A stretch of DNA of 64,000 nt from Pseudomonadota bacterium (GTDB taxonomy: Bacteria > Pseudomonadota > Gammaproteobacteria > Acidiferrobacterales > Acidiferrobacteraceae), in NCBI GenBank assembly GCA_021777535.1, contig JAJYDN010000010.1:1-64000 (forward strand), in the 5' to 3' direction. Below are positions 51,595 through 63,662 of this stretch, piece after piece. Below the pieces are notes generated by a model. It was not told where the DNA came from, did not search any database, and worked only from the letters and a program-made list of their open reading frames with translations. Position numbers and translations under genes: made by a program. Numbering within the stretch: the first letter of the stretch is position 1; every line of letters starts with the position of its first letter.

Positions 51595-52041
51595 CTAGCG
51601 CGAAAAGCGGTGGTGGCAGGCATGGCACCCATGCGCCACCGCCATCAAGGGCCGGCCCACCGCAGCAAGACCGTGCGGTGCCGCCGCAGCCAGGTCTGCG
51701 GCCTCGCTCTCGAAATTGCGCACCTCGCGCGAAAAGGCGGCCGGGTTCTGCCAGATGGTGAACTTCGCCCTCGTGCGGCCGCGGTCCGAGCCCGGCACGA
51801 AGGCCGCCCACGGCATGGCACTCAGCGCACTGATCGCCTGCGCCTCCGATTGCAGGGCCGCGGCATTATAGGGCCGCTGGTGGCGCAGCATCTGCGCGAT
51901 GTGGATGAGATTCCATTGCAGCGCCACCATGACCGCCTTGCGGTAGCCGATATCGGCTTGCATGCGGGTTTCCGCATGGCCTGTAGCGGCGACCAGAACA
52001 AGGCTGAGCGCACCGATGCTGCGTGTGATCCAGGGTTTCAC
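51595..52041 (-). CDS. Cytochrome c' (class II cytochrome c), exported
   Basis: A 148-residue product with GTG start at 52041, AGAAG about 8 bp upstream and a Sec signal (ITRSIGALSLVLVAATGHAE). The mature part is a four-helix bundle (RKAVMVALQWNLIHIAQML, WAAFVPGSDRGRT, FTIWQNPAAFSREVRNFESEA) with the heme motif CHACH only a few residues from the C-terminus, diagnostic of cytochrome c'. These proteins bind NO or carry electrons in the periplasm. It converges on the b561 gene with 15 bp between the stops. Confidence 0.9.
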   Translation of the reverse strand: MKPWITRSIGALSLVLVAATGHAETRMQADIGYRKAVMVALQWNLIHIAQMLRHQRPYNAAALQSEAQAISALSAMPWAAFVPGSDRGRTRAKFTIWQNPAAFSREVRNFESEAADLAAAAPHGLAAVGRPLMAVAHGCHACHHRFSR

Positions 52042-52211
52042 TGTCGATTCTTCTCTGTAGGGTAAGGAGGCCGCCACTTTCCCCTTCATCCGTGACAGGA
52101 CCATGACACAGGCGCCAGCAGCCGACGACAAGGCGCCAAAACCCGTTAGCGCGCAGGCGGGATACCGGCCGAGATATTGCCCCGAAGCCACGGACACTCC
52201 CGTTAAGCCAC

Positions 52212-53077: not shown

Positions 53078-53866
53078 TTATGTGTGCCGACGGGCCCCAC
53101 CCCGCGGCACCCGCCAGGCCCGCACGGCGAAATAGCGGCACATGCTCTTTAGATGCCAGAGCGCGTACTTCAATTGTCGATGGCTCGCCCGCCGGGCCTC
53201 ATGGATCACTCCCCCCACATCGGCGACGGCGACTTTGTAGCCCGCGGCACGCAACCGGGCACAGAGATCCACGTCTTCGTAATAAAGATGATAGGCCTCA
53301 TCAAAACCGCCGACTGCGCGAAACACGTCCCGCTTCGTCAGCATGAACATGCCGCCCACCCAATCCGGATAGCCGATGAGCTCCGCGCCCGAATCGAAGG
53401 TACGCGAGCGACCACCCGCGCATTTCCCTAAAATCTCGCCCACGGTGGGGAAATACCGGGCGTTGTCTTCCCGGTGGCCCTGCCCATCTGTTACGCGCGG
53501 CGCCACGAGCGCGACATCGGGATGCTGATCCAGGATCTGCGCAAGCCGGCCGAAGGGGTCGGCCTCCAGGCGAATGTCAGGATTCAGGATGCAAAAAAGC
53601 GCGTGTTGCGCGTATTGGGCCGCCTGATTGTGGTTCGCGCCAAACCCGAGCGGCCGGACATTGCGCAAAATCCGGATCGGGAAACCGAAATCCCGTTCGT
53701 CAAAGGCGACCGGCTCGGGCAGATTCAGCGTCAAAATGATTTCCGCGACCGCCCCCGGGGCCCGCTCCTGCAGGGTGCGCAACAAGGGCGCCACGAGTCC
53801 CATCTGACCGTGACTGACGATAGAGACGGATACCTGCGGATACGCAGCACCGGCCTGCGGCGTCAT
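53078..53866 (-). CDS. GT2 family glycosyltransferase
   Basis: A 262-residue GT-A enzyme: VSVSIVSHGQMGLVAPLL, LTLNLPEP, ILRNVRPLGFGANHNQA, LFCILNPDIRLEADPF (NPD metal motif) and DWVGGMFMLTKRDVFRAVGGFDEAYHLYYEDVDLCARLRAAG, a hallmark of WbbL/rhamnosyltransferase-type proteins. It is monocistronic and flanked by decayed DNA. It is GC-rich like the host, unlike the glycan genes at 29-33 kb. It probably contributes to the same cell-surface polysaccharide or to LPS. Confidence 0.9.
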   Translation of the reverse strand: MTPQAGAAYPQVSVSIVSHGQMGLVAPLLRTLQERAPGAVAEIILTLNLPEPVAFDERDFGFPIRILRNVRPLGFGANHNQAAQYAQHALFCILNPDIRLEADPFGRLAQILDQHPDVALVAPRVTDGQGHREDNARYFPTVGEILGKCAGGRSRTFDSGAELIGYPDWVGGMFMLTKRDVFRAVGGFDEAYHLYYEDVDLCARLRAAGYKVAVADVGGVIHEARRASHRQLKYALWHLKSMCRYFAVRAWRVPRGGARRHT

Positions 53867-54627: not shown

Positions 54628-54694
54628 TCACCCCGGATGGAAACCCCCGACGTAAGCGGAAACCGGCACCCGTCCTCCGATATGCCCCGCCTCC
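54577..54694. repeat. Direct repeat copy B (cydC 3' end and flank)
   Basis: The functional counterpart of the repeat at 53901-54017. It spans the last 20 or so codons of cydC and the following 50 bp. The two copies are 676 bp apart in the same orientation. Confidence 0.85.
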
Positions 54695-56343
54695 ATGGTC
54701 ACCACCTCGTCTACGAGCCGGGCAAGTCCCGCCAGACGATGCGTGACGACCATGACCGTCCGGCCCCGTGATGCCGCTTCCAGGGCCGTAAAGAGTTCCT
54801 GTGCCGTGCGGCTGTCGAGTCCCTCGGTCGGTTCATCGAGGATCAGCACCGGCGCCTCCTGCAAGAGCGCCCGCGCAATCGTGATGCGCCGCGCCTCCCC
54901 GCCGGATACGCGCACACCCCCTTCGCCAAGAAGCGTGCCGTAGCCATCGGGCAGCGCTCTGACAAAGGCCTGAAGCTGCGCGGCCTCCACGGCGCGGGCG
55001 ATCTCCTCTTCACGCGCATCCCCGGCGGCAAGCACGAGATTTTCCCGCAGGGAGCGGTTGAAGAGCACGGGGTGCTGGCCGATGACGGCGATCTGGCGGC
55101 GCACATCATCTCCGTTCACGGCCTCGAGGGGTTGGCCGCCGAAGGTGATCTCCCCTTTTTCGAGCGGATAGAACTTCTGCAGCGCGCGGATGAGGCTCGT
55201 CTTGCCGGCCCCCGAGGCGCCCACGATCGCCACACGCGCGCCCGGGGCGAGGTCGAGATCGACGCCATCGAGTGCAAGCGGCGCCCCTTTCTCATAGCGC
55301 AGCGCCACCCCCCGGAAGCGGATGCCGGGCGGGCGCGCCATGACCGCCGGCACCGGCGGCTCCCGCAGGGCCGGCTGTACATCCGCGAGCGCAAAGACCC
55401 GCTCCGCCGCCCTGGCTGCCGTCTGCGCCTGGATCGCCGCCTCGGGCAACGGCGCCATCAATTCGTACCCCGCGAGCAGGAGCAGCACCAGCATGACCAG
55501 GAAAGCGGGCGCCAGATGCCCGTGCATCACCACCGGATAGGCGCAGCCGATCACCCCCAAGACGGCGATCTGCGCGATCAGGGGAGACAGGCTTGCACCG
55601 AGCGCCTCGTGACGCGCCATGCGCAGGCGCCGCGCCGTTGCCTGCGCATCGCACTGCATGATCTGGTGCGCCTGCGCGGCGTCCGCGCCCCATGCCAGAA
55701 GCTCGGCATGTCCGCGCACCGCATCGATCAAGTGCCCGCGCACGAGTGCTGTCTCCTGCACGACGGCCGCCGCATCCTCCCGCGTCCGCTGGCGGAGCAA
55801 AGCCGGCACCGCGAGGGCCGCCATGCAGACCGCCGGCACCACCACGAGCAAGGCCACGGGGAGCCACCACGCAAAGGCGGCAATCAGCAGACCCGTCCCC
55901 ACCAGGGCCACACCGCCCGGCACCAGGACCACCAGATACCACTGCTCGAGGACATCGATGTCGGCGCGCAGCCGCGCGAAGAGTTCGGCACTGCGCAGCC
56001 CCGCAAGGCGCGCGGGACTCAACGGGATGAGCCGGCGCAGGAGCCATCCCCGCAGACGGGCAAGGCCCCGCAGGGCCGCATCGTGCGTCGCCAGCCGTTC
56101 TCCATAGCGCCCGCCCGTGCGCAGGATCGCACACAGGCGGATGAGGGCGGCCGGCGTGAAATAGTTGATGGCGGTGCCGGCGGCCCCGGCGAGCGCCATG
56201 GCGGCGATGAACCAGCCGGAAACGGTCATGAGACCAACGGCGGCCAGCGCCGCCAGCACCGCAAGCCCAAAGCCCCCCAGCATGCGCAGACGATCCTGCC
56301 GCATGAGAGAAAGCAGCCGGCGCAGATTGGCGTATCCCCTCAT
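54628..56343 (-). CDS. cydC: Cysteine/glutathione exporter ATPase-permease CydC
   Basis: One half of the CydDC heterodimer, which exports thiols and is needed to assemble cytochrome bd. The 571-residue product starts MRGYANLRRLLSLMRQDRLR. It has six membrane helices (LMTVSGWFIAAMALAGA, LLVVVPAVCMAALAVPALL, FLVMLVLLLLAGYELMAPLPEA) and an ATPase with GASGAGKTS (Walker A), VSGGEARRITIARAL (signature), VLILDEPTEGLD (Walker B) and VTHRL. The start overlaps the cydD stop by 4 bp. The open frame upstream of 56343 belongs to cydD sequence. Its 3' end is duplicated at 53901-54017. Confidence 0.94.
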   Translation of the reverse strand: MRGYANLRRLLSLMRQDRLRMLGGFGLAVLAALAAVGLMTVSGWFIAAMALAGAAGTAINYFTPAALIRLCAILRTGGRYGERLATHDAALRGLARLRGWLLRRLIPLSPARLAGLRSAELFARLRADIDVLEQWYLVVLVPGGVALVGTGLLIAAFAWWLPVALLVVVPAVCMAALAVPALLRQRTREDAAAVVQETALVRGHLIDAVRGHAELLAWGADAAQAHQIMQCDAQATARRLRMARHEALGASLSPLIAQIAVLGVIGCAYPVVMHGHLAPAFLVMLVLLLLAGYELMAPLPEAAIQAQTAARAAERVFALADVQPALREPPVPAVMARPPGIRFRGVALRYEKGAPLALDGVDLDLAPGARVAIVGASGAGKTSLIRALQKFYPLEKGEITFGGQPLEAVNGDDVRRQIAVIGQHPVLFNRSLRENLVLAAGDAREEEIARAVEAAQLQAFVRALPDGYGTLLGEGGVRVSGGEARRITIARALLQEAPVLILDEPTEGLDSRTAQELFTALEAASRGRTVMVVTHRLAGLARLVDEVVTMEAGHIGGRVPVSAYVGGFHPG

Positions 56344-58055
56344 GGGGCGGCCGCCGCGAGCAAGGCGCTGTAGGCGCCCGCCTGCGAAGCAAGCATTGCA
56401 GGCGGCCCTTCCTCCACGACCCGCCCGTCTGCGAGCACGATCACCCAGTCGGCCTTTTGGGCCGCCTCCAGGCGGTGGGCGACCAGCAGCACCGTCCGGG
56501 TGGATGCCCCCGCCCGGATCCTCTCCCCGATGCACTGCGCGCTCTCGCGATCGAGATGGGCGGTCGCCTCATCGAAGAGCCACACGCAGGCCCCGGTCCG
56601 CAGCCACGCGCGGGCGAGACCCAGGCGCTGCAGTTGGCCGCCGGAGAGCCCCACACCGTGCTCGCCGAGTGGCGTCTCGAGCCCCGCCGGTAACCGCGCC
56701 ACCACGGTGTCGAGTCCGCTTTCCTTGAGCGCGCGATCCAGCGTGGGGGGATCTGCGGAAGGCATGGCGAGCAGCAGATTGTGGCGCAGGCTCCCCGTGA
56801 AGACGGTGGGCGCCTGCGGGATGAGGCTTACACGGGCGCGCCATCCCACCGGATCGAGTGTTGCGAGATCCTTGCCATCGACAGTAACCACCCCGCTCGC
56901 GGGTTGCCCAAAACCGAGCAGGAGCTGCAGAATCGTGCTCTTGCCGGCGCCGCTCTCCCCGATTAGCGCCGTCACCTGGCCTGGGCGGATCGTGCAGGAG
57001 CACCCCTTCAAGACGGGCTGCCCGCCATAGCCGAAATACACATCCTGCAAGGCCAGTACCGGGGCTGCCGCAGGGGCCGCTCCCTTGCCCGCCGGGGGCG
57101 GCCGCCCGGCCCCCTCGATATGCTGTAGTGATTCGGCGGCGGCGAGCGCCTCGAGGCGCGCATGGCGCAGCGTGCCGAGCGCCCGCAGCGGCGCATAGAG
57201 CTCAGGTGCGAGGAGCAGCACGAAAAGTCCCGCGGAAAACGCCAGATCATGGGCCAGCAGGCGAAAGCCGATGAACACGGCGATCAGCGCGATGCTGACG
57301 GTCGTGAAGAATTCGAGCACGAGCGAAGACAGGAATGCGATGCGCAGCACCTGCATGGTCAGTTGCCGGTAGGTTTCGCTTTCCGCATCGAGTCCATCGG
57401 CCACCCGTTGCGCCGCCCCCAGTTCGCGCAAGGTCGTGAGATGGCCGAGCGCCTCGATGAAGGCAGCCCCGAGACGGCGCAGCTGGGCAAAGCGCTGATC
57501 GGCCGCGCGCTCGGCGTTATGACCGACAAGCACCATGAAGACCGGGATGAAGGGCGCCGTGCAGACGAGGATCAGCCCCGACACCCAGTCGGCGCGAAAG
57601 ATGGCGAGTACGGCGATCACCGGCATGATGACGGCGGCACTGGCCTGCGGGAGATAGCGCGCGTAATAGGGTCCCAGCGCATCGATCCCGTCGACCAGCC
57701 GGACCATGAGATCCCCGCTCGCCTGCGCACGCAGCGTCAGGGGGTCGAGCGACTGGATGTGGCGCAGAAACCGTTTGCGCAGATCCGTGCGCAGCCCAAG
57801 GCTTGCCGCTTCGGCCGTGCGCCGCCCAAGGCTTACCGCATAGGCGCGCACACCGATGGCCACCAGAAAGAACAGGGCAGACTTCCACAAGGGGCCTGCC
57901 GCGGCCCGTGGAAACACGATGGCGGCAAGCAAACGGGCGAGAAACCAGGCCTGGCCCACGGTGGCGAAAGCCGCGAGCGCCGTGAAGCCGCCGGCCCGCC
58001 ACAAGGGCCTGCGTATCCGCAGCGTCTCCTCCCGCAGCCACCGGACTGCCTCCAC
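56340..58055 (-). CDS. cydD: Cysteine/glutathione exporter ATPase-permease CydD
   Basis: Partner of CydC. From GTG at 58055 the product is 571 residues, starting VEAVRWLREETLRIRRPLW. It has a six-helix ABC exporter domain (AYAVSLGRRTAEAASLGLRTDLRKRFL, LTLRAQASGDLMVRLVDGIDALGPYYARYLPQ in part) and an ATPase with GESGAGKST, GLSGGQLQRLGLARAWL, ACVWLFDEATAHLD and VAHRLEAA. The frame stays open 53 codons upstream but that part is Arg-rich and unlike the family. It lies 58 bp after the CydX-like gene and is coupled to cydC. Confidence 0.94.
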   Translation of the reverse strand: MEAVRWLREETLRIRRPLWRAGGFTALAAFATVGQAWFLARLLAAIVFPRAAAGPLWKSALFFLVAIGVRAYAVSLGRRTAEAASLGLRTDLRKRFLRHIQSLDPLTLRAQASGDLMVRLVDGIDALGPYYARYLPQASAAVIMPVIAVLAIFRADWVSGLILVCTAPFIPVFMVLVGHNAERAADQRFAQLRRLGAAFIEALGHLTTLRELGAAQRVADGLDAESETYRQLTMQVLRIAFLSSLVLEFFTTVSIALIAVFIGFRLLAHDLAFSAGLFVLLLAPELYAPLRALGTLRHARLEALAAAESLQHIEGAGRPPPAGKGAAPAAAPVLALQDVYFGYGGQPVLKGCSCTIRPGQVTALIGESGAGKSTILQLLLGFGQPASGVVTVDGKDLATLDPVGWRARVSLIPQAPTVFTGSLRHNLLLAMPSADPPTLDRALKESGLDTVVARLPAGLETPLGEHGVGLSGGQLQRLGLARAWLRTGACVWLFDEATAHLDRESAQCIGERIRAGASTRTVLLVAHRLEAAQKADWVIVLADGRVVEEGPPAMLASQAGAYSALLAAAAP

Positions 58056-58113
58056 GCCGACCCCCCGGACCGGACGGCCGCGGCCGCGGCCTGGATGGTG
58101 AGAACTGGCCCGC

Positions 58114-58320
58114 TCAGGGCGCCTTGTGCGCAGCCCCCTTGGCCGCCGCCTCCTCCTGTGTATCGAGCCAGGCGGCGCCCGCCGCCGACACGAGCACGAT
58201 GAGCGGCGTGCCAATGAGCCACGCGAAGTACCACGCGCCGCGGTCGCCCAGCACCACGGCGAGCAGAATCACGCCGAAGGCGAGCACCAGAAAGAGCAGG
58301 AAGTAGGCCAGGGTTTTCAT
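58114..58320 (-). CDS. cydX: CydX-like small subunit with an extra N-terminal helix
   Basis: A 68-residue protein (ATG 58320, GAGGGG 6 bp upstream) immediately after cydB. Residues 29-55 read GAWYFAWLIGTPLIVLVSAAGAAWLD, matching CydX (MWYFAWILGT...), the single-helix subunit that stabilises heme b595/d in cytochrome bd. Unlike the usual 30-40-residue CydX, it carries a first helix (AYFLLFLVLAFGVILLAVVLG). This may correspond to the YbgE-type helix usually encoded separately. An in-frame ATG at 58356 would overlap cydB. The order cydA-cydB-cydX-cydD-cydC supports the call. Confidence 0.8.
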   Translation of the reverse strand: MKTLAYFLLFLVLAFGVILLAVVLGDRGAWYFAWLIGTPLIVLVSAAGAAWLDTQEEAAAKGAAHKAP

Positions 58321-58336
58321 CGGCTGCCCCTCGATT

Positions 58337-59470
58337 TCAATAGGCGTGTTCGTCATGGGCGATCTCCTCGGCGCGGACCTTGCCCCGCATCACCCAGAAG
58401 GCCCAGCTCGTATACCAGAGGATCAACGGCACGAAGACCACCGTAAAGCCCAGCATCCACAGAAGCGTGAGCCTGCTCGAACTTGCGTTCCACACCGTAA
58501 GGCTCATCGAGGGATCGCTGCTCGAGGGCAGGAGGAACGGAAAGAGCGCGGCCCCGGCCGTGCCGATCACGCCCGCCCAGGCGAGCGCCCCGCACCACCA
58601 GCCGAGGAGATTCCGGTGCGCGCGGGTGGCGAGATACACGCCCGCCATGCCCAGGAAACCCAGCGCCGGCACGAGATAGAGTGATGGGTGCGCGGAAAAG
58701 TTGTCCCGCCAGGCGCCGGCTGCACGGGTCACCATCTGCATGAGCGGCGTCTGCAGGATGCCGGGCGCCGGCGCCTTCACGAGACGATAGCCGTCAATGC
58801 GGCCTACCCAGACCCCTTCGGCGGCAAAGATCACGATCGCCGCAAGGCTCGCCCAACCCGCCATCTTGTGGGCGCGCTGATAGAGCATCCCCTCGGTCTT
58901 GTTCAGCAACATCACGGCCCCCATCATCATCGAGAGCGCAAGCGCCAAAAGCCCCGTCACGACGGCAAACGGGTTCAAAAGGCCAAGAAAACTGCCCGTG
59001 TACACCGACGCGAGATCCCACGCGAAGCTATAGGGGACGCCGCGAAAGAGATTGCCGACGGCCGCGCCGAAGATCACCATCGGCACGGCACCGCTCACAA
59101 AGAGGCTCCAGTCCCACACATTGCGCCACCTGGGACTTGCGATCTTGCTGCGGTACTCAAACCCGAGCGGACGCACGATCATGGTCCACAAAAGCAGCAT
59201 CATCACGACGTAAAAACCGGAAAACGCCGTCGCATAGATGAGCGGAAAAGCGGCAAACAGCGCGCCCCCGCCCAGGATGAACCAGACCTGGTTACCCTCC
59301 CAGTGGGGGCCTATCGCATTCAGGGCGACGCGCCGCTCGACATCGGAGTGCCCCACGTAGCGCAAAATGGTGCCCACCCCCATGTCCATGCCGACCATCA
59401 CGCCCAAACCGATCAGGAGTACGCCGAGCAAGAGCCACCATGTCACCTGCAGACCCGCGAAAAGTTCCAT
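58337..59470 (-). CDS. cydB: Cytochrome bd quinol oxidase subunit II
   Basis: A 377-residue membrane protein (E. coli CydB is 379) starting MELFAGLQVTWWLLLGVLLIG. It has the family motifs VMVGMDMGVGTILRYVG, IGPHWEGNQVWFILGGGALFAAFPLIYA and NPFAVVTGLLALALSMMMGAVMLL. It has nine helices and no heme ligands of its own. It begins 1 bp after the cydA stop and overlaps nothing downstream; the CydX-like gene follows in 16 bp. The frame is open 18 codons upstream inside cydA; the family start is used. Confidence 0.97.
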   Translation of the reverse strand: MELFAGLQVTWWLLLGVLLIGLGVMVGMDMGVGTILRYVGHSDVERRVALNAIGPHWEGNQVWFILGGGALFAAFPLIYATAFSGFYVVMMLLLWTMIVRPLGFEYRSKIASPRWRNVWDWSLFVSGAVPMVIFGAAVGNLFRGVPYSFAWDLASVYTGSFLGLLNPFAVVTGLLALALSMMMGAVMLLNKTEGMLYQRAHKMAGWASLAAIVIFAAEGVWVGRIDGYRLVKAPAPGILQTPLMQMVTRAAGAWRDNFSAHPSLYLVPALGFLGMAGVYLATRAHRNLLGWWCGALAWAGVIGTAGAALFPFLLPSSSDPSMSLTVWNASSSRLTLLWMLGFTVVFVPLILWYTSWAFWVMRGKVRAEEIAHDEHAY

Positions 59471-59471
59471 G

Positions 59472-61046
59472 TCAGCCTCCCAGATGGGGTTCCTGTGCGC
59501 CCGCCACGTGCACGACAGGGCCACCGTGCGCAGGTTCGGGGCCGCTACGGATCGCCCGTATCATGAGCACCATCTCGACTATGATAAAGGCCGTATAGAG
59601 CAGCAGAAAGCCCGCGAGCGAAAACACCATGTAGCCCACGCTGTGATCGGAGACGCTCATCCACGTCGGCAAAATCCCGAAAACGGTCCATGGCTGGCGG
59701 CCCAGTTCGGCCACCAGCCACCCGCATTCGTTGGCCAGAAACGGGATCGGGATCATCCACACCGCGGCCTGCAAAAACCGCGGGCGATCCTGGACGACGT
59801 TGCGCAGCGTAAAGAGTACCGCCATCACGAAATAGGCGAGCATCAGCAGTCCCAGACCCACCATCGAGCGGAACGCCCAGAAGATCGCCGCCACCGCCGG
59901 GATGGTGTCGTCTGCCGCCCGCCTGATCTCCTGCGGGCTCGCCTGGGCAAGGTTGGCCGCATAGCGCTGCGCCAGAAAGCCGTAGCCGACATCCTTTGCA
60001 TGCGCGTCGAACTGCGCGCGCGCCGCCGCATCCCCCGGATCCTGGGAAAGCGTCTCCAGGGCTTCGACCGCCGGAATCCCGTTGCGGATCTTCCGTTCTG
60101 CCCGCTTCTCCAGGGCATCGATCCCCGGCACCGTACCGGTCAGCGAATGCGTGACGAGCAGCGACAGGAGATCCGGGATCTGTACGGCTGCGTGATTGAC
60201 GCGCTCCTTCTGGTCCGGAAACGCGATCAGATTGAAAGGCATCGGCGCCTGCTCGGTCTTCCAGACCGCCTCCATGGCGGCAAGCTTGGTCGGCTGCACG
60301 CGCGCGGCGACGAACCCGAGCGCATCGCCCAGCGTGATGACCCCGATGGTCGCCATCACCCCGAAAAGCGCCGCCATCCGGAACGAACGCTTGGCGAGCT
60401 CCAGGTGGCGGCGCCGGAGCATGTAGAAGGCACTCACGCCGGCGACGAACACGGCCGCCGTCACATAGCCCGCGATGCTCGTGTGGACGAACTTCGACTG
60501 GGCATCCGGGCTAAACAAAAGATCCGGAAAACTCCTCAACTGCATGCGCATCATCGTGGGATTGAAGACCGCACCCCGCGGATCCTGCATGAAGCTGTTG
60601 CCGACCAGGATCCACAGGGCAGACAGGTTCGAGCCGAGCGCGACAAGCCAGGTGACCGCCAGATGCTGGCCCCTGGAGAGCCGGCCCCATCCGAACATCA
60701 TGAGCCCCACGAACGTCGATTCCAGGAAAAACGCCATGAGTCCTTCTATGGCAAGCGGCGCCCCGAAAATGTCGCCGACGAAACCCGAGTAAAAAGACCA
60801 GTTGGTGCCGAACTCGAACTCCATCGTAAGACCCGTGGCGACACCCAGGGCGAAATTGATCATGAAGAGCTTGCCCCAGAACTGGGCCATTTCCCGGTAA
60901 ATGGGCTTGCCCGTGGTGACGTAGACCGTCTCCATGGCCGCGAGAAGGAAGCTCAAGCCCAACGTAAGGGGAACGAACAAGAAGTGGTAGAGCGCGGTGG
61001 CCGCAAATTGCACGCGGGACAGATCGACAACGGTTCCATTGACCAT
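59472..61046 (-). CDS. cydA: Cytochrome bd quinol oxidase subunit I
   Basis: A 524-residue heme-bearing subunit of the high-affinity terminal oxidase. Ligands are in place: H21 in ATALYHFLFVPLTLG (heme d axial in current structures), FVHTSIAGYVTA (heme b) and FWAFRSMVGLG (Met ligand of b558), with the conserved glutamates in AIEGLMAFFLESTFVGL. The Q-loop between helices 6 and 7 is long, as in the E. coli-type L subfamily. The C-terminal tail (GPEPAHGGPVVHVAGAQEPHLGG) is His/Gly-rich. The start MVNGTVVDLSRVQF at 61046 follows GGGGAATAGG. First gene of the cyd operon. Confidence 0.97.
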   Translation of the reverse strand: MVNGTVVDLSRVQFAATALYHFLFVPLTLGLSFLLAAMETVYVTTGKPIYREMAQFWGKLFMINFALGVATGLTMEFEFGTNWSFYSGFVGDIFGAPLAIEGLMAFFLESTFVGLMMFGWGRLSRGQHLAVTWLVALGSNLSALWILVGNSFMQDPRGAVFNPTMMRMQLRSFPDLLFSPDAQSKFVHTSIAGYVTAAVFVAGVSAFYMLRRRHLELAKRSFRMAALFGVMATIGVITLGDALGFVAARVQPTKLAAMEAVWKTEQAPMPFNLIAFPDQKERVNHAAVQIPDLLSLLVTHSLTGTVPGIDALEKRAERKIRNGIPAVEALETLSQDPGDAAARAQFDAHAKDVGYGFLAQRYAANLAQASPQEIRRAADDTIPAVAAIFWAFRSMVGLGLLMLAYFVMAVLFTLRNVVQDRPRFLQAAVWMIPIPFLANECGWLVAELGRQPWTVFGILPTWMSVSDHSVGYMVFSLAGFLLLYTAFIIVEMVLMIRAIRSGPEPAHGGPVVHVAGAQEPHLGG

Positions 61047-61740: not shown

Positions 61741-62271
<531 letters not shown>

Positions 62272-62279
62272 GGGGGATC

Positions 62280-63662
62280 ATGCGCAATCTGCTGGCGATC
62301 ATCAAAAGAACGGGGCTCACGCTCATCGTGATCCTGATGCTCAACCCGTTGTCCGCCCATGCGGCAGGACACGCCGCGACCGCCACCCCCGCACCGGCTA
62401 CGGCCACCGTGGCACCGCCCGTGCCGATGCCGGCCGCAGCCCCCATCAGTCGCGGCGACACGGCCTGGATGCTCACCTCCACCGTGCTCGTCCTCATGAT
62501 GACGATCCCGGGACTTGCGCTTTTTTACGGTGGCATGGTGCGCGACAAAAACGTCCTGAGCACGCTCGCCCACAGCTTTGCGACCACCTGTCTCGTCACG
62601 ATCCTCTGGTACATCGCGGGCTACAGCCTCTCCTTTACGGGGGGCAACGGCTTCATCGGGGGCTTGGGGCGGCTCTTCCTGCACGGCATGGGGCGCGATA
62701 CCGTGACCGCCCGCTCGATGGCGATCCCCGAGTCCGTCTACATGTCCTTCCAGCTCACCTTCGCCATCATCACGCCGGCGCTCATCTCGGGATCCTTTGC
62801 CGAACGCATCAAGTTCTCGGCGGTCCTCTGGTTTAGCGCGCTGTGGCTTTTGTTCGTGTATGCCCCCATCGTGCACTGGATCTGGTCGACACACGGCTGG
62901 CTTGCCAAGATGGGTGTCCTCGATTTCGCGGGCGGCACGGTCGTCGAGGTCAACTCCGGCGTGGCCGGTCTCGTCACCGCCCTCGTCATCGGACGGCGCG
63001 TCGGTTACCGGCGCGAGGCGATGGCGCCGCACAATCTCGTGCTCACCATCCTTGGCGCCTCGCTCCTCTGGGTCGGGTGGTTTGGCTTCAACGCGGGCAG
63101 CGCGGTCTCCTCCGGGGGACTTGCCGGGATGGCGATGGCGACCACACAGATCGCCACCGCCGCGGCCGCCATGACCTGGATGTTCGCCGAATGGAGTGCC
63201 CGCGGCAAACCGAGCGTCCTCGGCATGGCCTCCGGCGCAGTCGCAGGCGCCGTCGCCATCACCCCGGCCTCGGGCTTCGTGGATCCGACGGGCGCGCTCG
63301 TCATCGGCATCGCGGGTGGCATCGCCTGCTTCTGGGCGGTGACCTATGTGAAGAACCTGCTGGGCTATGACGACTCCCTGGACGTGTTCGGTGTCCACGG
63401 CATCGGCGGCATGGTGGGCCTTTTGCTCACCGGCGTATTCGCCATCAAGGCGATCGGCGGAACGGCGGGCGCCCTCCAGGGGAACCCCGGCCAGATCGGC
63501 AAACAGGCGATCGCCATCGGCGCCGTCGCCGCCTACGACGCCATCATGACCTTCGTCATCCTGAAAGTCCTCGATCTCGCCATGGGACTGCGGCCGACCG
63601 AAGAGCAGGAACGCGAGGGTCTCGACATCACCCAGCATGGGGAGCGCGCCTACAGCGAATAA
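62280..63662 (+). CDS. amtB: Ammonium transporter AmtB
   Basis: A 460-residue ammonium channel with a signal sequence (residues 1-29, ending SAHAAGHA) and a Pro/Ala-rich linker to residue 55, then eleven helices. It has VLMMTIPGLALFYGGMVRDKN, FAIITPALISGSFAERIKFSA, VYAPIVHWIW (first pore histidine), FAGGTVVEVNSGVAGLV and FGVHGIGGMVGLLLTG (second pore histidine). The ATG at 62280 is 8 bp after glnK. The pair forms the standard glnK-amtB operon in which GlnK plugs the channel, and the terminator follows at 63680. Confidence 0.97.
   Translation: MRNLLAIIKRTGLTLIVILMLNPLSAHAAGHAATATPAPATATVAPPVPMPAAAPISRGDTAWMLTSTVLVLMMTIPGLALFYGGMVRDKNVLSTLAHSFATTCLVTILWYIAGYSLSFTGGNGFIGGLGRLFLHGMGRDTVTARSMAIPESVYMSFQLTFAIITPALISGSFAERIKFSAVLWFSALWLLFVYAPIVHWIWSTHGWLAKMGVLDFAGGTVVEVNSGVAGLVTALVIGRRVGYRREAMAPHNLVLTILGASLLWVGWFGFNAGSAVSSGGLAGMAMATTQIATAAAAMTWMFAEWSARGKPSVLGMASGAVAGAVAITPASGFVDPTGALVIGIAGGIACFWAVTYVKNLLGYDDSLDVFGVHGIGGMVGLLLTGVFAIKAIGGTAGALQGNPGQIGKQAIAIGAVAAYDAIMTFVILKVLDLAMGLRPTEEQEREGLDITQHGERAYSE

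Follow-up and report, generated by a model that had tools for sequence, protein, structure and literature searches.

A two-helix CydX accompanies an altered CydA quinol site in one clade of long-Q-loop cytochrome bd oxidases

The CydX subunit encoded in a cytochrome bd operon of an Acidiferrobacteraceae bacterium carries a second hydrophobic helix ahead of the familiar one, and comparison with other long-Q-loop operons suggests something new: that CydX of this two-helix form is associated, in one clade, with a changed quinol site in CydA. The two-helix protein as such is already published (Allen et al. 2014, PMC4325964, as the "grey clade"; Degli Esposti et al. 2015, PMC5322542). No report of the quinol site of its clade came up in searches of a literature in which most subscription papers were outside reach, nor in the portions consulted of PMC10715153, and the available portions of PMC4325964 and PMC5322542 report none of its residues. 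The window that we analysed is a stretch of 64,000 nucleotides, positions 1 to 64,000 of contig JAJYDN010000010.1 (assembly GCA_021777535.1), forward strand.

The cydX frame runs on the minus strand from an ATG at 58318-58320, 16 nt past the cydB stop codon (58337-58339), to a TGA at 58114-58116 (Table 1), and its protein finds a single match in its own genome at E ≤ 10. Residues A29-W30-Y31-F32-A33-W34 align with M1-W2-Y3-F4-A5-W6 of E. coli CydX, and the motif that PMC4325964 gives for CydX, YxxWxxGx15E/D, is present as Y31, W34, G37 and D53. The initial annotation had the AWYFAW signature beginning at residue 29 behind a full extra helix, and this holds: the open frame covers both, and over the 26 residues ahead of the motif the highest Kyte-Doolittle mean of any 17-residue stretch is 3.34. 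Among 12 two-helix loci compared, the window included, 11 have an ATG 28-29 codons before the Trp, preceded by what appears by eye to be a purine-rich stretch; the exception, locus L085, has GTG at -36, and no start position nearer the Trp is common to all 12.

Table 1. Features of the cyd operon in the window
Feature	Position	Strand	Basis or remark
cydC	54628..56343	-	TIGR02868, 426.8 bits, over cut-off; start assumed (ATG 56343)
cydD	56340..58061	-	TIGR02857, 551.9 bits, over cut-off; start assumed (GTG at 58061 or 58055)
cydX, two-helix form, 68 aa with stop	58114..58320	-	ORF, codons, PF08173 and TIGR02106 matches from residue 30
CydX core helix W30-D53 (E. coli W2-E25)	58162..58233	-	Y-x2-W-x2-G-x15-D motif
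Turn G25-D26-R27-G28-A29, in place of Met1 of one-helix CydX	58234..58248	-	
Extra N-terminal hydrophobic helix, residues 2-24	58249..58317	-	hydropathy, AF2, purifying selection
GAGGGG, likely ribosome-binding site of ATG 58320	58327..58332	-	sequence, by eye
cydB	58337..59470	-	TIGR00203, 384.1 bits, over cut-off
cydA, long Q-loop	59472..61046	-	PF01654, 557.8 bits; Q-loop span of long class
cydA codon 300	60147..60149	-	His replaces E. coli Arg298
cydA codons 235-245 (E. coli 233-243)	60312..60344	-	G235, A242, L243, F245 replace S233, E240, S241, Y243; D241 kept

Around the operon, a glycosyltransferase-like ORF (53078-53866, minus strand; PF13506, E 1.7e-10) lies beside cydC, cytochrome c' is encoded at 51595-52197 (minus strand; PF01322, E 2.4e-28), about 2.4 kb beyond the cydC end, and genes for a P-II protein (PF00543) and then an ammonium transporter (PF00909) occupy 61933-63662 on the plus strand, divergent from the cyd genes.

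Of 93 loci examined, 88 yielded both cydB and a CydX motif and were classified; five rows were dropped, cydB not being found in four (L086-L088 and L091) and the motif being unmatched in L089. By a rule of our own for the two-helix class, namely a mean above 1.6 and a motif more than 60 nt past the cydB stop, a hydrophobic stretch precedes the motif in 31 of the 88 (best mean at least 2.62). The other 57 have no such stretch, the highest mean being 0.61 and many of the preceding open frames being too short to score. Operons were chosen to cover both classes and many families (L083 and L084 have identical CydX, and L078-L081 are closely related), so that these counts are not prevalences.

Codon comparisons indicate that helix 1 evolves as protein, under purifying selection. 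Between the window and L075 it shows 1.0 nonsynonymous difference in 56.8 sites and 13.0 synonymous differences in 24.2 sites; in 7 of the nine pairs compared dN is at least about 3-fold below dS, or dS is saturated, and in the two nearly identical pairs, L078/L080 and L180/L181, both values are too small to distinguish. Helix 1 is more variable than helix 2, with more nonsynonymous change in 8/9 pairs (non-zero in 9/9). On this codon evidence, both helices of cydX are one reading frame under selection. AF2 models of the window protein show two helices, the first at residues 2-24 or 2-27, with a break at residue 25 or 28 but, at pTM 0.45 and 0.48, they do not settle whether the chain forms a hairpin or a kinked helix, nor how it packs. 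Foldseek gave no match at E ≤ 10, and a PDB sequence search gave no two-helix CydX structure, helix 2 alone being matched, to E. coli CydX (E 0.003).

To judge by its sequence, the window CydX is a member of the published two-helix class: it has the second, N-terminal hydrophobic helix before the CydX helix, its gene follows cydB in an operon of the long-Q bd-I type, and a single CydAB clade recurs across distant hosts. The class, as described in the accessible parts of PMC4325964 and PMC5322542, occurs in alpha-, beta- and gammaproteobacteria, with Acidithiobacillus, Acidiphilium, Thiomonas, Bordetella avium, Frateuria and Acetobacter among its hosts; comparison with it by text and legends, not residue by residue, revealed no structural difference. 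With E. coli CydX (bd-I) and AppX (bd-II) the window protein shares the W-Y-F-A-W start of the helix, G9, the acidic residue at 25 and the place after cydB. Those proteins consist of one helix from Met1, whereas the window protein, in which Met1 does not stand right before WYFAW and the helix is not single, has the extra one; it also has I, G and L where the one-helix consensus has A13, N20 and W23. Two profiles match residues 30-54 below their cut-offs, PF08173 at 21.6 bits (cut-off 26.2) and TIGR02106 at 20.4 bits (cut-off 31.6), the latter shortfall meaning that the protein is not filed as a TIGR02106 equivalog. All five two-helix genomes in our phylum sample likewise score below the PF08173 cut-off, and annotation by that cut-off would therefore miss the gene.

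Orthologues have the extra helix in common, a point that the initial annotation had proposed to check. Profiles of the two-helix form gave matches that cover both helices, by our reading of the matched ranges and in samples that partly overlap: across the phylum in 5 of 398 genomes (63 with any match at E ≤ 0.01), within the order in 8 of 57, in the family of genome G354 in 19 of 150 (23 with any match at E ≤ 0.001), and in the order of genome G371 in 3 of 100 (13 with any match). The window protein itself has clear orthologues (E below 1e-15) in 7 of 60 relatives and some match at E ≤ 1 in 34, most of those beyond the 7 being weak. No plasmid carriage was detected by tblastn at E ≤ 1e-3. We also considered a link with acid habitats. 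Several of the hosts that PMC4325964 names are acidophiles; Luteibacter and Bordetella avium stand against a simple rule.

A FastTree tree of CydA plus CydB put the 31 two-helix operons in one clade and the 57 one-helix operons in the other. Forty operons were then added by hand from the PF01654 list, 28 of them short-Q and 12 long-Q, the latter with a small hydrophobic ORF after cydB in 11. Among the resulting 100 long-Q operons the 31 are again one clade, sister to the other 69, with FastTree support of 1.0 and 0.956, respectively, and UFBoot values of 100 for the 31, 99 for the 69 and 100 for long-Q as a whole; a tree of CydA only supports the 31 at 0.971 and the 69 at a weak 0.684. The two-helix clade spans the window's class and another lineage of the phylum.

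The two clades differ in the quinol site of CydA. According to the available portions of PMC13189123 (2026), Tyr243 and Arg298 are conserved catalytic residues found only in long-Q-loop oxidases, and in E. coli the Y243A, R298A, S233A and D239A mutants are inactive, S233 being judged structural. Set beside the long-Q-loop (qOR1) type of that paper, the window enzyme has the long Q-loop but lacks Tyr243 and Arg298: E. coli positions 233, 239, 240, 241, 243 and 298 are Gly, Asp, Ala, Leu, Phe and His. Asp239 is found in 31/31 of the two-helix clade. Ser233 is found in 0/31 (Ala 18, Gly 12, Cys 1), as are Glu240 (Ala 26, Val 5), Ser241 (Leu 30, Ala 1) and Tyr243 (Arg 15, Phe 12, Val 3, Glu 1), and position 298 is His in 27 and Arg in 4 (L078-L081, one genus). 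The other 69 long-Q operons have Glu or Asp240, Ser241 and Arg298 without exception, Tyr243 in 66 and Ser233 in 61; the three of these one-helix-type operons without Tyr243 (L210, L214 and L215) keep Arg298. The two-helix clade shows no change at residues 252, 257, 391 and 393, at heme ligands 19 and 186, or at Ile144.

In these positions the clade resembles the short-Q-loop oxidases with DUF2474-type small proteins, which have His at the Arg298 position (25 of 28 operons) and no residues of Glu240 or Tyr243 type; it differs from them in the span of the Q-loop, 85-90 residues there and 152-162 in the two-helix clade (150-157 in the one-helix class). On the simplest view the long loop arose before the Tyr/Arg pair, and the short-Q-like His is one that the clade has retained; loss of the pair in the two-helix clade is a possible alternative. 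Since a single evolutionary split is involved, helix and quinol site may be associated by ancestry alone. Use of menaquinone was examined as a reason for the changed site and set aside: MenD (TIGR00173) is over cut-off in 0 of 30 two-helix and 3 of 50 one-helix genomes, in a sample that covers the MenD route alone and from which five of the 57 one-helix genomes, E. coli, L033 and L034 were left out, and it does not separate the classes.

CydX too differs between the classes beyond the presence of helix 1. The residue before the Trp is M in 56 and V in 1 of the 57 one-helix proteins, and P in 19, A in 10, K in 1 and H in 1 of the 31 two-helix proteins; the latter have G25 in 29 and G28 in 30, and W30, Y31, W34, G37 and T38 in all. 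E. coli position 13 is Ala in 57/57 one-helix versus Ile in 27/31 two-helix sequences, position 20 Asn in 53/57 versus Gly in 28/31, and position 10 mainly Leu or Val versus Thr in 31/31. Positions 18-20 form a small-residue patch in two-helix CydX, with mean volumes of 94, 94 and 63 versus 156, 163 and 113. Such differences in the CydX helix itself make the two-helix form a separate type rather than the usual CydX plus one helix. The initial annotation's phrase, CydX fused to an extra helix, stands as to the full N-terminal helix and its presence in orthologues, but "fused" may be a misnomer, since two helices could be the older state, as parts of PMC5322542 argue for related proteins.

What might helix 1 do? 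In E. coli, by the account in the portions seen of PMC13189123, CydX forms the dimer interface through Met1-Trp2, and when the dimer forms, Trp2 rotates to bind CydA Asp239, which orders residues 239-247 and places Tyr243. We tentatively favour, at somewhat less than even likelihood, the reading that window cydX encodes a two-helix version of the third subunit of a cytochrome bd quinol oxidase with a long Q-loop, helix 1 acting as a partner substitute that orders the lid. Helix 2 would take the place of E. coli CydX on CydA, with W30 opposite Asp241 (E. coli Asp239), which is invariant; helix 1 would run from cytoplasm to periplasm, turn at G25-A29 and pack on the outer face of helix 2. It is that outer face which in E. 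coli, with Met1 and Trp2, meets the CydX of the second protomer, turning Trp2 onto Asp239 and ordering the Q-loop lid. With the Met1 position tied to it, helix 1 would do the partner's work and bring the lid into order within a monomer, while quinol would be handled by a site nearer that of the short-Q-loop enzymes, with their His at 298.

Several features fit. The equivalents of W2 and of CydA D239 are each present in 31/31, so that Met1 has gone but the Trp2-Asp239 pair remains. If helix 1 runs outward and helix 2 inward, the two must lie side by side, and of the faces left free on helix 2 that which takes the partner CydX in E. coli is the likeliest; the small-residue patch agrees with a close neighbouring helix. 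The N-tail is net positive in 28/31 and the turn neutral or negative in 25/31, with starts set by us for five sequences lacking a nearby Met, which fits an N-in topology with the turn outside, the net +1 on the other 6 turns counting against it. The available text of PMC6853902 has the C-terminus of E. coli CydX on the cytoplasmic side; the topology assumed in PMC4325964, as far as its accessible part goes, is opposite to that of later structures. The invariance of Thr10 in two-helix CydX is not explained by the preferred mechanism and counts against it. So do the Arg298 of four clade members, the lack of Tyr243 in three of the 69 other operons, the single split, the weak CydA-only value for the 69 and the low pTM of the AF2 models. 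Possible, if doubtful, is the wider claim that two-helix CydX is the mark of a second type of long-Q-loop bd oxidase, one that branches deeply and would oxidise quinol without Tyr243/Arg298 and in which helix 1 would be a built-in dimer-partner substitute ordering the lid in the monomer. The seen portions of PMC13189123 call Tyr243 and Arg298 conserved and catalytic and link the ordering of the lid to dimers made by CydX; a long-Q clade that branches deeply, lacks the pair and has a tethered helix in place of the dimer-contact Met is a natural test of both claims, and the clade's quinol site bears on bd-oxidase inhibitors that bind there.

Helix 1 might instead enlarge the dimer contact, two two-helix CydX forming a four-helix interface between protomers. 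That CydX is the dimer interface of E. coli bd-I (PMC13189123, as available) speaks for this, as does conservation of the helix 2 small-residue patch and the turn glycines; the loss of Met1 from the Met-Trp contact speaks against it, and we think it somewhat improbable. That helix 1 merely steadies the subunit, in lipid or against CydA TM5/6, the changed quinol site reflecting shared ancestry, we regard as unlikely. The confinement of the trait to one clade and the greater variability of helix 1 in 8 of the 9 pairs would suit such a role, but the helix is kept in all 31 clade members, across several families, and the conserved Trp-Asp pair lies at the changed quinol site itself.

Signal peptidase I follows a small-x-small rule, and a Pro stands before the Trp in 19/31 proteins, with position -3 mostly charged, Tyr or Gln; this makes it quite unlikely that helix 1 is cleaved off as a signal peptide, or serves only transiently for insertion, and that the mature subunit starts at Trp, although a signal-peptide role for the N-terminus of the related DUF2474 proteins is suggested in a part of PMC5322542.

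The initial annotation suggested that helix 1 may resemble CydH or YbgE and so occupy a second accessory position, and this is very unlikely. CydH/YnhF (NF033411) and YbgE (PF09600) are, like CydX, small hydrophobic accessory proteins of bd oxidases; CydX and CydH both touch CydA TM1, as far as the structural account seen goes, and neither CydH nor YbgE is over cut-off in any of 12 two-helix genomes searched, which speaks for this reading. That absence says little, however, and co-occurrence is uninformative as a test, because in the phylum sample no more than 21 of 398 genomes have CydH over cut-off, so that its absence is expected. No Pfam/NCBIfam match to either family was found in the window CydX at E ≤ 10, and CydH sits on the side of CydA opposite to CydX (PMC8951039, in the portion available), where a turn of about five residues (G25-A29) cannot reach.

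Least credible is a start inside the frame near WYFAW, with helix 1 not made, the objection foreseen in the initial annotation: in-frame GTG and TTG codons nearer the Trp do occur, GTG at -7 and -8 being common to three loci of one genus, but no ribosome-binding stretch was seen before these GTG codons, dN lies far below dS over helix 1, and the shared ATG at -28/-29 (11/12 loci, with no nearer start common to the 12) is the probable start.

Three minor observations concern CydX. Thr10 of E. coli CydX touches the structural ubiquinone, and this residue, invariant in the 31 two-helix proteins, is rare in the 57 one-helix proteins; its partner in CydA, Ser233, shows the opposite class pattern. 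At loci L185, L191, L192 and L085 the motif of the two-helix CydX has diverged (WYLAW, WYLVW, WYLIW), and no Met stands where the frame usually starts. The long-Q operons L207, L208, L210, L214, L215 and L216 have a much altered one-helix CydX, e.g. MWYIMWLVVAALAVYVG.
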